From contig JACQFD010000021.1 in assembly GCA_016200225.1 (NCBI GenBank), positions 124,001 through 188,000 of the forward strand: a stretch of DNA of 64,000 bases. The letters run 5' to 3'. The position numbers were made by a program, and so were the translations under genes. Positions 48,911 to 55,747 of this stretch are shown here, one piece after another; position 1 is the first letter of the stretch; each line of letters opens with the position of its first letter. Origin of the DNA: Planctomycetota bacterium (GTDB lineage Bacteria; Planctomycetota; UBA1135; JACQFD01). The notes beneath the pieces were generated by a model. It had not been told where the DNA came from and made no database searches. It saw nothing but the letters and a program-made list of their open reading frames with translations.

Positions 48911-49375
48911 ATGCCCACATCACCCCGACCCATTGTCATTGCAAATGATTTGATCGGCGCCATCGTTCCGTTTAACGGTCTCGATTATCGCATCACGGGA
49001 ATCGTCGGCAGCACGCAGCTTCCAGTCGGTACGACGCTTCCCATGCTTGTGATTCAAGCGCCGGACGGATCCTCGACGACATTTACACATACGGCGGATT
49101 CCTTCGGGGCTCCGGACGGTCGCATCGGAACGATTATTAGAAACGCCTGGGTTGTATGGACCGATGATACGATTCGAGGCACGACGATCGTTCGTTTCAA
49201 CGAGTCCACGGAGACGTTCGCGTCGACCCTCACGCTCGATTGCGATATTCAAATCGAAATCGATCCCGACGGCCGGGTTCACGTCGCATGTTTTACGATA
49301 AACTGTCCCACGGGCCAGTCCTGCAAGCCGCATCAGATCCTCCTCGGCGTGTGGGTTTGCACGTGCTTGCCGTAG
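48911..49375 (+). CDS. small protein of unknown function with Cys-rich C-terminus
   Basis: 154 residues from ATG 48911. No signal peptide; the sequence is beta-prone and Thr/Ile/Asp-rich, with two Trp near residue 80 (NAWVVWTDD). The last 30 residues hold four or five cysteines (CFTINCPTGQSC, then WVCTCLP), which could bind metal or form disulfides. No family recognised. It ends 42 nt before the fused sigma-factor gene, so the two may be coexpressed and functionally linked. Confidence 0.6.
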   Translation: MPTSPRPIVIANDLIGAIVPFNGLDYRITGIVGSTQLPVGTTLPMLVIQAPDGSSTTFTHTADSFGAPDGRIGTIIRNAWVVWTDDTIRGTTIVRFNESTETFASTLTLDCDIQIEIDPDGRVHVACFTINCPTGQSCKPHQILLGVWVCTCLP

Positions 49376-49417: not shown

Positions 49418-52400
49418 TTGCCAACTAAGTCCAAACAAGAAAACGAGCGGGCGGAAAAGCGCATCGCGGACGCGTATTTCGCGTGGCGTAACCTCAAAAA
49501 CGACGCCGCGGCGGAGATATTCGTCAAAGAAGTTCTGCTTTATTATTATCCCGCCGCGCGCAGGATATGTAATAATAGGAACGAAGCCGCGGACGCGCTC
49601 CAGGAGGCGTTTCTTCAACTTGTCATTCATCATAAGAAAAGAAGGCGGCCAAAAAACATTTCAGCGTGGCTGACCAGAGTTATCATTAATATATGCATTA
49701 ACGCAAAAAAAACCGAAGGTTTTAACGAAGACATGAGATCCAACTACATACCCCAGTTGCGAGACGATGAAAATCCGGAAGATCGGTACGAATCCGATCG
49801 TGCTACACTTCTCCGCAAGGCGCTGCAGGTGATGCCTCGAAACCTCCGCGAGTGCCTTGAACTCTCGTATCTTGACGAAGTGAAGGGGACGGCGGCGGCG
49901 AAATTATTAAAAATCGACCTCGACGATTATTACAGAATCGTCCATCGCGCGCGGAAGTTCGTGCGCGACTATTTCGAACGGTCGATGAAACCGGTTTCGG
50001 ACGAGGAAATCGATCAACTCATGAAATCGCGGATCAACGAGCCCGCGCCGGATGAGTTAAAAGCATCCATTCTTGGAACGCTCCTCGCGGCATCGACGGC
50101 GTCAACCTCCGCGTCTTCAACATCCGCGGGCGCGACCTTCGCCGGCAGAACAGTTGCGGGGGCCCGCAAGTGGAGTCGTCCTGTATTCTTAGTAACGGGC
50201 GCGGCCGTCGCCCTTTCCGCCGCGATCGGAATATATATCTTAACGAAGCCGAAGGGCGTCGAATGGACGTTAATGAATGGTTACGCGTCGCCCACCGCCG
50301 CGCCAAACATATCAAACGCAGGCGCTCCGCGAATTGTAACGAACAGACGCAAACCGGACGTGGCCTGGGTTTCGACGACAATGGTAGGAAAAGTAGCATT
50401 GCGCGATCCATGGACCGGATTGCACGCGCCGTTCAACGGCGCCGTCGTCACCGCACATCTCGCGGGAATGCCAAATTCGACGGCGGTCACCGACCCGACG
50501 GGAACCTATCAATTGCCGATCGGCGATTTTACAAAACTCCAGTCGATCGACGTGATTGCCGCGCAGGCGAATTATACAAAAACCAGCGTCACTCCTTCGA
50601 CGTGGAACATGGTACTCGCGCCCGGCTACAGTACGATGGCCGACGTGCTCCTCGAGCAGGCGTCGGTCGTTTCCGGCGAAATTACATTCGAGGGAAACGA
50701 GCCTGCCGCGGATGTGGAAGTAACGATCGAGTCTCTGACGACCGGCATCATGTATCATGGCCTCGCGGGCGGCACGGACCACTCGTTCGCGATTGCGAAC
50801 GTTCCCAACGGTAAATATCAAATTCACGCCGCGTCCGGCTTCGCCGTTTACGATTCTCCGGCGCCCGTGGACATCGACGCGCACGTCGCGGCGTCGAATA
50901 TTCTTATTACATTTCCAAAGACCGTTTCGAGAACGTTTCAAATACGATTCGCTTCGAATGCGCCCGGCGGCGACATCGTCGCCGCGAAGGGCTTTGCGCT
51001 CGTAAACCAAAACGGAACGCTGATCGCGACTGTCGACACGGACGGCAAGTTCACGGTGCCCGTGCGCGACGGAGACGCGAGCGCGCCGTCGAATCTAAAT
51101 ATTCGTGGAGAATATGCGAACACACATATTTGTTATCCGCTGACGGCCAGCGACTGGACCAGCCTGTTCGATACGGGCTCGACGACGGTTCCGGCGCTGT
51201 TCGCGACGCACGTCGTGTTGCAGAATGTCCCCGCCTCCGCCGTGGTCACGCCCGAATCTGTTATTTTAAAGACTGGAATGATTCCGATCGGCGCCGATCA
51301 AATCGTCGTCAATAATAATAATTCCACGTCGCTCGATATTCATTATTCGAGCCAGGGCCAGTCAAATGTTCAATTCTGGATTCAACCGAAGGGCATGGCC
51401 CCCGTACGAGTCACGGTCGCGCCGGGGCAGGAATCCGCCGTTTTCGACGCCGGACAGGGCGGCACGATTTCGGGAACTTTGTTCGCGTCCGACAATGCGT
51501 ACGCGAAGCAGGCGGCCGTTTTGGTGTATCTCGGGCGAAACATGATCGCTGCGGTTCCAACTTCGGATGCGGGTGAATTCAACATCCCGAACATGCCGAA
51601 GGAATTGTTAACGATCTTCGCTGTGTCGGCGGCAGGTTCTTACCAAACCGCGGTCATCCCAAGCTTGCTCGGGCCGGACAACGGACTCGTCCAATCCGTC
51701 GCCGACCCCGTTGTCATGCAGCCCCTCAATCATATTCAAATCGGACTTTCGCCGGGATTTGTGCCTGAAATGAATCTTGGCATCGCGAGCGGAGTTTTGA
51801 CGGACGCTAATTATCGCCCGCAGAGCGGCCAGCTTTATCGAAGCCAGGTGCGCACCGATGAGATCCTCGACATCGGCTGGCTTCCCACGGGATTGTACAG
51901 TTGCATCGGCTATTCCCGGCCCGGCGCCAGCGCTCCGGATTCCAAAGTCACCCGCTTCTTTACAATTTCCACGGACTCGTTATACATCATCAATACGAGC
52001 GATCTTGGAACGCTTACATTGACGCTCAGCGGTCAGGCCGAGCTTTATACTTATATTTCCGCGGTTTTGTTGAATAATAAATTTCCATACTTCTCGACGG
52101 CCGAAGTCAACTCCGACGGGAGCCTGAAGTTCGAGAACGTGCCGGCGGGAAACTACGATATTTGGATCATTCCGCGCGGAGGCGCGCCCGTTCCGGGATC
52201 GCTCGTGAATCAGTCGGTGGCGATGTCCAAGGATCAAATCCACGAAGGTCTTGGAAAACTAAAGCTCGACGACTTGAACGTTAGCGTTATCGGAAATACG
52301 AAACTGACGACGCCTGCTATCATAAATATCAAAACCGGGATTTTACAAATTCAACCGGAATGGTGGACAAACTGCGGCACGATGCAAGTCTGCGCGAAAA

Positions 52401-52564
52401 CTTCGACCGGCAGAGTCGGGGGCGCCAGTCTTCGGGAGGCTTCCTCCACCGACAAGGACAAACTCCTTCTACCGCTTCCGGTCGGGAGTTATTGTTTGAT
52501 TGGCATCGCCGCCGACGGCTCGACCAAATTCACGCACGACGTCGTCACGCTGCCCGCGAAATAA
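49418..52564 (+). CDS. ECF sigma factor fused through a transmembrane helix to a large exported beta-sandwich region
   Basis: 1048 residues from TTG 49418. Residues about 30-100 are sigma-70 region 2 (NRNEAADALQEAFLQLVIHH, ISAWLTRVIINICIN) and about 130-190 region 4 (LLRKALQVMPRNLRECLELSYL, then a helix-turn-helix to YRIVHRARKFVRDYF). A linker (PAPDELKASILGTLLAAS) resembles the juxtamembrane part of anti-sigma factors, but no zinc-binding HxxxCxxC motif is seen. One transmembrane helix lies at about 252-275. The remaining 770 residues are beta-rich with several carboxypeptidase-regulatory-like modules (GAVVTAHLAGMPNSTAVTDPTGTYQLP; FAIANVPNGKYQIHA). It is probably a membrane-tethered sigma factor with an exterior sensing or binding part. 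Confidence 0.85.
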   Translation: MPTKSKQENERAEKRIADAYFAWRNLKNDAAAEIFVKEVLLYYYPAARRICNNRNEAADALQEAFLQLVIHHKKRRRPKNISAWLTRVIINICINAKKTEGFNEDMRSNYIPQLRDDENPEDRYESDRATLLRKALQVMPRNLRECLELSYLDEVKGTAAAKLLKIDLDDYYRIVHRARKFVRDYFERSMKPVSDEEIDQLMKSRINEPAPDELKASILGTLLAASTASTSASSTSAGATFAGRTVAGARKWSRPVFLVTGAAVALSAAIGIYILTKPKGVEWTLMNGYASPTAAPNISNAGAPRIVTNRRKPDVAWVSTTMVGKVALRDPWTGLHAPFNGAVVTAHLAGMPNSTAVTDPTGTYQLPIGDFTKLQSIDVIAAQANYTKTSVTPSTWNMVLAPGYSTMADVLLEQASVVSGEITFEGNEPAADVEVTIESLTTGIMYHGLAGGTDHSFAIANVPNGKYQIHAASGFAVYDSPAPVDIDAHVAASNILITFPKTVSRTFQIRFASNAPGGDIVAAKGFALVNQNGTLIATVDTDGKFTVPVRDGDASAPSNLNIRGEYANTHICYPLTASDWTSLFDTGSTTVPALFATHVVLQNVPASAVVTPESVILKTGMIPIGADQIVVNNNNSTSLDIHYSSQGQSNVQFWIQPKGMAPVRVTVAPGQESAVFDAGQGGTISGTLFASDNAYAKQAAVLVYLGRNMIAAVPTSDAGEFNIPNMPKELLTIFAVSAAGSYQTAVIPSLLGPDNGLVQSVADPVVMQPLNHIQIGLSPGFVPEMNLGIASGVLTDANYRPQSGQLYRSQVRTDEILDIGWLPTGLYSCIGYSRPGASAPDSKVTRFFTISTDSLYIINTSDLGTLTLTLSGQAELYTYISAVLLNNKFPYFSTAEVNSDGSLKFENVPAGNYDIWIIPRGGAPVPGSLVNQSVAMSKDQIHEGLGKLKLDDLNVSVIGNTKLTTPAIINIKTGILQIQPEWWTNCGTMQVCAKTSTGRVGGASLREASSTDKDKLLLPLPVGSYCLIGIAADGSTKFTHDVVTLPAK

Positions 52565-53175: not shown

Positions 53176-54387
53176 TTATCGGGGTTTGTCGGCGACGACT
53201 TTACCGTCGATCACGACGCCCGTGCAGTGCGTCGTATATTCGAACGGATCGCCGTCGTAGAGCGCGACGTCGCCGTCCTTGCCTTTCTCGAGCGAGCCGA
53301 CTCTTTTATCAATTCCGAGAAGCCGCGCCGCGTCGATCGTGAGCGCGCGCAGCGCCGCGTCGCGGCCGAGGCCGTGCGCCGCGGCCACCGCCGCTTCGAA
53401 CAATACGACGCGCGTTTTCGGAACATAACCTTCGAATCCGCTCTGGAACGCGAACGGAATTCCGGCGTCGCGAAGTTTCGCGGCGCTCTCGAATGTTAAA
53501 TTATCAGTTTCGCCGCCCGCCCTTTGCATGGCCGGATGGATAATAATCGAAACGCGGGCGCGTTGTAACGATTCGATCAGCATCGGCGCGTCCGCGGCGC
53601 CGTCGAGCACGAGTTTGATATGAAATTCGTCCGCGAGGCGCAGCGCCGCGGACATATCCGTATGCCGCTGCGCCGTCACGAGCAGCGGCATCGCGCCGTC
53701 GAGCACCTTCGATAATGTTTCCATTCTCAAATTCCGCTCCGGACGCTTCGTTTCGTCGGCGACCGCCAATTTCTTTTTGTATGCTTGCGTTTTGATAAGT
53801 TCCTCGCGGAGCATCGCGACGGCCTTCGCGCGCGTGCCGGGCGATTTGTCATTTTGCGCGCCGTCGCCGAGCGTCGCCGCGACCATGGCCTCCGAAACCA
53901 TCACCGCCTCGTCGACGGTCTTTCCAACGGTTTTCGCGATCATCGTCTGGCCGGAAATCAGCGCGCCCGGCCCGTGTCCCGTGTGAATTGTAGTCACTCC
54001 GAAACCGCGGATCCATTCGATGAGCCGCTCTTCCGGATTATAAGCATCGATCGCGCGCAGTTCGGGCTGGATCGGCGCGGAACGCTCGATTTGCTCCTGA
54101 TCGTGCGGTTGATTCAAATAACCGGTCAGCCCGACGCACGTGTGCGCGTCGACGAGTCCCGGGACGACGACGGCCGCGCGCAGAATTGTAAAATCGGGCG
54201 GAACGCGCACGGCGGAGGCGGCGCCCACTTCGTCGATCTTACCGTTTCGAATAATAACAATTCCGTCGCGGATCGGTTCGCCCGCCATCGTGTACACGGT
54301 CTCGCCGCGGATGGCGACCTGCGCGCGCGCGGTCGACACAAAACTTCCGAGAGCCGCCGCCGCGGCGAATATGTAATTGATCCTCAT
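53176..54387 (-). CDS. amidohydrolase-like protein with degraded metal site
   Basis: 403 residues with a signal peptide (SFVSTARAQ). Its fold and order follow the amidohydrolase superfamily and its upstream neighbour (VVPGLVDAHTCVG; GVTTIHTGHGPGALISGQT; DAARLLGIDKRVGSLEKGKDGDVALYDGDPF). The HxH motif reads HTC, the HHHTHRHDD block of the partner reads LVTAQRHTD, VLHHVSEGW reads VLDGAADAP, and HTDDY reads QSGFEG, so most metal ligands are gone. It is probably non-catalytic. It starts 1 nt after its paralogue with a GGAGG site inside that gene's end, which implies coupled expression. Confidence 0.82.
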   Translation of the reverse strand: MRINYIFAAAAALGSFVSTARAQVAIRGETVYTMAGEPIRDGIVIIRNGKIDEVGAASAVRVPPDFTILRAAVVVPGLVDAHTCVGLTGYLNQPHDQEQIERSAPIQPELRAIDAYNPEERLIEWIRGFGVTTIHTGHGPGALISGQTMIAKTVGKTVDEAVMVSEAMVAATLGDGAQNDKSPGTRAKAVAMLREELIKTQAYKKKLAVADETKRPERNLRMETLSKVLDGAMPLLVTAQRHTDMSAALRLADEFHIKLVLDGAADAPMLIESLQRARVSIIIHPAMQRAGGETDNLTFESAAKLRDAGIPFAFQSGFEGYVPKTRVVLFEAAVAAAHGLGRDAALRALTIDAARLLGIDKRVGSLEKGKDGDVALYDGDPFEYTTHCTGVVIDGKVVADKPR

Positions 54388-54388
54388 A

Positions 54389-55747
54389 TTAACGATCCTC
54401 CCCGTCGGCGGCGCAGCAGCCGAGATCGAGACGCGGTTCGCCCGCGCCCCTGCCCCCTTCGGCGACGAGGCGGTCGCGCGCGCGCGACCGATCGAAGACT
54501 AATTTTCCTTCGATCCATGTTTCAGTAACATAAGAATAGACGCTCAGCGGATCGCCCGACCAGATCGCGAGATCCGCGTCCTTGCCGGTCTCCAGCGAGC
54601 CGATTTTTTTGTCGAGTTCGAGTATTTTCGCCCCTTCGATCGTCAACGCCGCGAGCGCGCCGCGCCGCGACATGCCGCCGCGCACGGCGAGAGCGGCCGA
54701 TCTGTTAAATAAGCGCGAATCTGTAATATAATCATCCGTATGAATCGCCACGCGCGCCCCCGCGCGCTCGAGAACGCCGCAGGTTTCGATCGATGCGTCC
54801 TTCGCCTCGAGTTTCCCCCCGGGACTGTCGATAACAATTACAGAACAAGGAACATTAGCTTTCGCGATCTCGTCGGCGACTTTCCAGCCTTCGCTGACGT
54901 GGTGCAACACGACTTTGAAACCAAACTCTTTTTGCAGCCGAAGAACTGTTAATATATCGTCGTGGCGGTGCGTGTGATGATGGACGACGCGCTTTCCGTC
55001 GAGCACTTCCACGAGCGCCTCCATGTTCAGATCGCGTTCGGGCATTTTTTCGGGATCGCCGTTCGCTTTCTTTAATTTATCGCGATACGCGGCCGCTTTT
55101 ATATATTGTTCGCGCACCAGCGCGGCCGATTTCGCGCGCGAACCGGGAAACGGCGGATTGCCGCGGCTGTTCGTGCCGTTGGCCATTTTGATTCCACCGG
55201 CGGCGGAACCGTCGTCGAGTTTTATCAATAAATCCTCGATCGCGTTGCCGTCGCGCAATTTTAAATATAATGTTTGCCCGCTTAACAAATGGCCCGATCC
55301 GGGCATCACGTTCGCGGTCGTGATGCCGCCCGCGCGCGCCCTCGCGATGCCTGGATCGCGCACGTCGATCGAATCCATCACCCGGCAATCGGGTTGAATG
55401 GGCGACGAACTGTCGCCTCCAGCCGGCGCGCCGATGTGGCTGTGCGTGTCCACAAAACCCGGAAGTATATATTTTCCGCGCGCGTCGACTTCCTCGGCGT
55501 TCGCTGGAATTGTTACATTCGCCGCGCGTCCGACGGCCGTAATTTTGCCTTTGTCGACCACGAGAACGCCGTCGTCGATGTCCTCGCCCGCCATCGTGAC
55601 GATTTTCGCGCCGCGAAAAACCACCGGGCGGCTCGCGGAGTCGGCGACGCGCGGGCCTTGGGAAAAAGAAAGCCCGCGCGCATTGGCGCACGCCGCGCCC
55701 GCCGCAAGCAGCGCGAGCGCGACAAATTGTAAGTTTTGAATTCGCAT
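54389..55747 (-). CDS. amidohydrolase (imidazolonepropionase-like), metal site intact
   Basis: 452 residues, exported (signal peptide ending AACANA). Metal ligands appear in place: GFVDTHSHIG (HxH), VVHHHTHRHDD, KVVLHHVSEGW and IHTDDYITDSR with the catalytic Asp. KIGSLETGKDADLAIWSGDPL is the conserved C-terminal beta strand. Its substrate is probably a peptide- or amide-type metabolite; related tandem periplasmic amidohydrolases are common. It directly precedes the degraded paralogue. Confidence 0.88.
   Translation of the reverse strand: MRIQNLQFVALALLAAGAACANARGLSFSQGPRVADSASRPVVFRGAKIVTMAGEDIDDGVLVVDKGKITAVGRAANVTIPANAEEVDARGKYILPGFVDTHSHIGAPAGGDSSSPIQPDCRVMDSIDVRDPGIARARAGGITTANVMPGSGHLLSGQTLYLKLRDGNAIEDLLIKLDDGSAAGGIKMANGTNSRGNPPFPGSRAKSAALVREQYIKAAAYRDKLKKANGDPEKMPERDLNMEALVEVLDGKRVVHHHTHRHDDILTVLRLQKEFGFKVVLHHVSEGWKVADEIAKANVPCSVIVIDSPGGKLEAKDASIETCGVLERAGARVAIHTDDYITDSRLFNRSAALAVRGGMSRRGALAALTIEGAKILELDKKIGSLETGKDADLAIWSGDPLSVYSYVTETWIEGKLVFDRSRARDRLVAEGGRGAGEPRLDLGCCAADGEDR
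54398..54404 (-). promoter_or_regulatory. Shine-Dalgarno of the second amidohydrolase gene
   Basis: GGAGGAT, inside the last codons of the upstream amidohydrolase gene, lies about 9-10 nt before ATG 54387. It is one of the few strong ribosome-binding sites in the window and fixes this start. Confidence 0.55.

Follow-up and report, generated by a model that had tools for sequence, protein, structure and literature searches.

The open reading frame (ORF) at positions 49418..52564 of the window, i.e., the whole 64,000-nucleotide stretch of planctomycete DNA analysed here, probably encodes an ECF sigma factor that is translationally fused to its own membrane-bound regulator, in which a linker and a transmembrane (TM) helix would hold the sigma domain, a large ectodomain would sense, and proteolysis would release the sigma. 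The same architecture occurs 17 times in the source genome and throughout the order, and a split counterpart of the fusion is found in the same genome. Moreover, members of the main clade of fusions carry signals of an internal start just before the TM segment.

Architecture of the fused protein

The ORF is intact on a contig of 479 kb and displays a coding-like signal from end to end (GC3 of 0.58-0.70 across sigma, linker, TM and ectodomain). Its parts are the following:

49418..52564, + strand: whole ORF, 1048 aa, TTG start; ECF sigma, linker, TM and ectodomain
49505..49714, + strand: sigma region 2, approximately residues 30-99 (Pfam Sigma70_r2 at 46-99, E 1.2e-8, above the cut-off; pLDDT ~95)
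49808..49978, + strand: sigma region 4, HTH, residues 131-187 (Sigma70_r4_2 below cut-off, TIGR02937, Foldseek)
49985..50110, + strand: cytoplasmic linker with two predicted helices (195-206 and 211-231), starting at in-frame Met190
50183..50239, + strand: single TM helix, residues 256-274 (hydropathy 2.21; model helix at 260-275, low confidence)
50240..52561, + strand: predicted exported ectodomain, 774 aa, all-beta
50669..50854, + strand: CarboxypepD_reg beta-sandwich, residues 418-479, the best-modelled part of the ectodomain (1.2e-11; pLDDT ~72-87)
52073..52207, + strand: second beta module, residues 886-930, resembling a sigma-less paralog and the split partner

The N-terminus is an ECF (group 4) sigma-70 factor, with regions 2 and 4 only and a short linker between them. 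Both regions, which the earlier note had placed within the first 190 residues, were recovered by profile searches, although the Pfam match of region 4 (Sigma70_r4_2 at residues 131-181, E 3e-4) reaches 20.7 bits against a cut-off of 25.7. The TIGR02937 sigma70-ECF model covers residues 32-184 with 51.8 bits, over its cut-off of 42.9, and solved ECF sigmas are matched at 1.7e-8 (phmmer). In the AlphaFold2 model, regions 2 and 4 mostly show pLDDT values of 91-98 and the Foldseek matches are ECF sigmas, with region 4 of sigmaE at a TM score of 0.80. The recognition helix of region 4 is divergent.

The single membrane helix previously noted at about 252-275 corresponds to the only hydropathy segment, at 256-274. 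The adjoining linker and stalk look flexible, with low pLDDT at 235-258 and 277-311. In the ectodomain, Pfam detects CarboxypepD_reg in three stretches, of which 418-479 is the best (E 1.2e-11). Structure prediction of this part, suggested for residues 276-1048, models only that module well, and the remainder is mostly beta-rich with a mean pLDDT of 42. Thus, the proposal that about 770 residues consist of carboxypeptidase-regulatory modules is only partly shown, because most of the remaining ectodomain lacks a family assignment and models poorly. As for the linker, described as anti-sigma-like, a Pfam scan revealed no anti-sigma domain and there is no zinc motif (HxxxCxxC), and the model predicts two helices versus the four of a class I anti-sigma domain; the resemblance that does stand is to the split counterpart described below.

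A 154-aa gene with a Cys-rich C-terminus, at 48911-49375 (+), lies 43 nt upstream of the ORF on the same strand. Its product has no Pfam match, and it was discarded as an operon partner, since it is an orphan with 0 homologs in 61 genomes of the order. Two adjoining genes at 53176-55747 (-), of 403 and 452 aa, appear amidohydrolase-like when their translations are read by eye.

A split counterpart and an order-wide family of fusions

In the source genome, 16 stand-alone ECFs have a TM partner encoded next door, whereas no small membrane partner gene was found downstream of the fused genes, in agreement with the earlier suggestion that the window protein functions without a separate anti-sigma factor. 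One of the stand-alone pairs reproduces the anatomy of the fusion in two genes:

L121 2945-5628 (G000 C3 ~27.9-30.6 kb), - strand: split pair of an ECF and a membrane CarboxypepD_reg protein, with GTGA overlap

Here, the stand-alone ECF C3:30343 overlaps by GTGA a gene of 693 aa (L121 2945-5026, minus strand), whose product has a short cytoplasmic N-terminus, one TM and CarboxypepD_reg modules (3.8e-38). The linker of the fused protein, SDEEIDQLMKSRINEPAPDELKASILGTLL, aligns with the N-terminus of this partner, FEENLQKLFKRAYQPAPCREEFRDALLARIL, over a short segment (permutation p 0.0002), and in-frame Met190 falls at most 2 residues from the start of the partner. Four partners were tried, after inspection, and the match is significant only for this one; those of L092 and L088 are marginal (p 0.04-0.06) and that of L110 gives no significant alignment (p 0.70). 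In the sigma tree, the window protein adjoins another stand-alone ECF, C36:164407 (93/74, long branch), whose gene overlaps that of a single-TM protein; the corresponding segment of the latter resembles the linker by eye but has no significant match to it (p 0.70). The match to the split counterpart provides the strongest indication that the C-terminal part of the window protein was once a separate membrane regulator, and the exported region therefore most likely represents the sensor half of a sigma/anti-sigma pair whose two members now share one polypeptide.

Sigma-less proteins carrying these ectodomain modules behind an N-terminal TM are also abundant. At L136 1613-15553, six tandem genes encode N-terminal-TM proteins, several of them with CarboxypepD_reg matches, in which no sigma domain was detected.

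The source genome contains 59 Sigma70_r2 matches, 17 of which (the window protein included) lie near the N-terminus of proteins of 695-1284 aa with a TM segment at ~185-275 and a large C-terminal part; C9:87908 has a second, weaker TM segment. Fifteen of these fusions form one clade (support 100/99), leaving outside the window protein and C3:66737, although a single clade of all fusions is not rejected by the AU test (p 0.175), the window protein being a long branch. Therefore, it is best described as a divergent member of the family, perhaps an independent fusion. No ortholog of it was found in 151 genomes of its class at E <= 1e-10, so that conservation offers no check on it.

Searching with a profile built from the 15 clade members, with at most 21 candidates scored per genome, places the main fusion clade in 85 of the 121 genomes sampled from the order, often with at least 20 fusions in each. 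The matches almost always lie in frames of ~700-1600 aa, and the short frames are mostly at contig ends. Contigs were also searched with a 5-row subset of the 15-row alignment. The fused relatives L181 and L264 (putative Planctomycetes bacterium Pla86, CP036296.1) and L173 and L184 (two MAGs) all contain sigma regions 2 and 4 together with CarboxypepD_reg according to Pfam. Size and module type, which had been judged unusual, are both the norm across the order.

Unfused members of the main clade were considered as possible split operons and rejected, most of them being truncations at contig ends. Two, related to each other, are genuine, L178 3411-4406 and L258 4574-5410, which lack TM and ectodomain, have no detectable membrane partner, and each lie near a full fused member; a loss of the sensor is possible in both. 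Outside Planctomycetota, a MAG labelled Oscillibacter encodes an ORF of 901 aa (L192 5689-8394) with an ECF sigma, TM segments and a Big_2 Ig-like domain, which may be an independent sigma-TM-Ig fusion.

Across the fused proteins, 100 of 147 members have a higher net charge N-terminal to the TM than C-terminal to it, with 25 ties, a positive-inside trend that suggests a type-II topology (N-in/C-out). In addition, the stretch that separates region 4 from the TM carries a conserved W..(A)LLPL-like motif in 81 of 147 main-clade members, e.g., L264 4592-7114, compared with 4 of 964 control stretches; this motif possibly contacts the sigma or the membrane.

Signals of a probable internal start in the main clade

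In main-clade members, an in-frame ATG or GTG is found just before the TM, and the alignment of the sigma-TM junction shows a Met adjoining the TM in most of them. In a first set, Met is next to the TM in 48 of 73 proteins (14% expected) and, where Val replaces Met in the motif, the codon is GTG in 7/7 cases. An independent second set of 80 further members, 74 of them usable, gave 35/74 (10% expected) and 6/6, respectively, with Shine-Dalgarno (SD)-like triplets upstream in 25/42, compared with 99/319 control Mets (p 0.0004). When a slightly broader motif was applied to both sets, the Val codon was GTG in 21/27 cases, whereas occurrences of this motif within the ectodomain gave 173/472 (p 2.8e-5). 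Without the motif requirement, GTG codons among the 8 that precede the TM in members lacking Met showed no significant excess (p 0.115).

The nucleotides upstream are biased as well. Gly residues 3-5 codons before the internal start are encoded by GGA in 29/43 and 28/47 cases against a background of 18% and 14% (p ~1e-12 in each set), figures that, as all those given here for the internal start, come from related members that are not fully independent. An SD core is located 5-15 nt upstream in 47 of 110 cases, versus 16.0 +/- 2.6 under a synonymous-codon null, with a peak at -12, which corresponds to a normal spacer. Since amino acids were held fixed in this null, the excess points to selection of the internal start for translation initiation. 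Controls were flat at Mets of the ectodomain (z -1.7) and of the sigma domain (z -1.5), as well as at most shifted positions; a shift of +3 codons, which partly overlaps the real site, gave z 5.4. Codon bias is an unlikely cause, given that the effect appears in each of the two sets and that the controls stay flat.

The window gene carries no such signal, having no ATG, GTG or TTG next to the TM and no SD core at Met190 or Met202. The usage of SD sequences is low throughout its own genome and, therefore, the signal comes mainly from other genomes. For the main clade, the internal start implies a second predicted product, a membrane sensor without sigma. It is somewhat more likely than not that, across the order, many genes per genome encode two nested in-frame products, namely a tethered ECF sigma-giant surface sensor and, via a selected internal RBS before the TM, a sigma-less sensor; translation would then determine how many sensors of a surface assembly carry a sigma and how many are plain.

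Mechanism, precedents and alternatives

In the proposed mechanism, the short anti-sigma-like linker and one type-II TM helix would keep the sigma domain at the cytoplasmic side of the membrane, where the linker may autoinhibit it, while the exported beta-sandwich ectodomain would sense an envelope or surface state through a putative ligand. Release would most likely follow the two-step intramembrane proteolysis known from IutY and RseA, and the freed sigma domain would then join RNA polymerase. In the main clade, though not evidently in the window gene, the internal start would additionally yield a TM-ectodomain without sigma, so that sigma-tagged and untagged sensors would coexist and assemblies could mix both.

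Sigma-TM-sensor fusions are already known (ECF52, ECF48, ECF53 and IutY), and the precedent invoked in the earlier note for ECF groups with C-terminal membrane extensions is borne out by ECF52 and IutY. In ECF52 (SCO4117 of Streptomyces coelicolor), one polypeptide comprises an ECF sigma, a TM and an extracytoplasmic sensor-like C-terminus, for which proteolytic release has been proposed; the group, restricted to Actinobacteria, also contains a zinc-finger anti-sigma domain, a proline-rich stretch and a carbohydrate-binding module (CBM) (PMC5826349, PMC8999054). The window protein is likewise one chain with sigma and TM. However, Pfam detects no zf-HC2 between sigma and TM in it or in the fused relatives scanned, and its C-terminus matches CarboxypepD_reg and other beta-sandwich models instead of a CBM; furthermore, the fusions described here belong to Planctomycetota, often with at least 20 copies per genome. 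IutY (ECF243) of Pseudomonas putida is released by Prc and RseP (PMC8999054), but it serves iron-starvation cell-surface signalling with a FecR-type partner, and a FecR domain was not detected in the window protein at E <= 1. The SigI/RsgI systems of Clostridium thermocellum are likewise paralogous sets, in which a sigma factor is under the control of a protein with one TM and a large external sensor that is cleaved by RseP and then ClpXP (PMC12203970), although they consist of two separate proteins, with another sigma family and other ectodomains. Lastly, ECF57 (Singulisphaera) is likewise a planctomycete ECF with a C-terminal extension, although it is listed as regulated by protein interaction (PMC8999054, Table 2). 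The literature searched, whose scope did not extend to key classification papers, contained no report of a CarboxypepD_reg-ECF fusion or of an internal start and, within it, the ectodomain type, the order-wide expansion and the internal start appear to be new.

The same anatomy would also fit a sigma that acts while still tethered, in the manner of ToxR or CadC, with the ectodomain reorienting or oligomerising it at the membrane without cleavage. The flexible appearance of linker and stalk and the absence of a protease gene adjoining the window gene agree with this alternative, which we nevertheless consider unlikely, given that IutY, the characterised TM-tethered fusion, is freed by proteolysis, that the same is presumed for ECF52 (PMC8999054, PMC5826349), and that a sigma must travel with RNA polymerase, which a tether hinders. 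Less probable still is that an exported surface or structural protein is the real product and the sigma an autoregulatory or partly vestigial N-terminal extension. The abundance of sigma-less paralogs with the same ectodomain, the selected internal start of the main clade and the sub-cut-off region 4 of the window protein speak for it, but all fused relatives scanned by Pfam possess sigma regions 2 and 4, these regions are predicted to be well folded in the window model, and a vestigial domain would not explain why the fused frame has been kept across the order. That two genes were wrongly joined by assembly or annotation is scarcely credible; the assembly has 40 contigs and no ortholog confirms the join, yet an artefact would hardly account for the 17 fusions of this genome and the dozens seen elsewhere, the chromosome of the putative Pla86 among them, or for the uniform coding signal along the ORF. 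The one-protein sigma-TM-sensor route put forward in the earlier note thus remains the best reading, backed by the split counterpart, the 17 fusions and the order-wide architecture, and partly supported as a whole.

ECF signalling usually involves two or three proteins, and in this order a large share of it seems to have been transferred to single polypeptides. The split pair offers, within the same genome, a natural point of comparison for the replacement of a sigma/anti-sigma operon by a fusion. If active, the internal start would provide a nested-gene means of fixing how much sensor is made relative to sensor-sigma. With their very large exported sensors and many paralogs per genome, the single-chain proteins may serve as one-gene outside-in switches to study and engineer.
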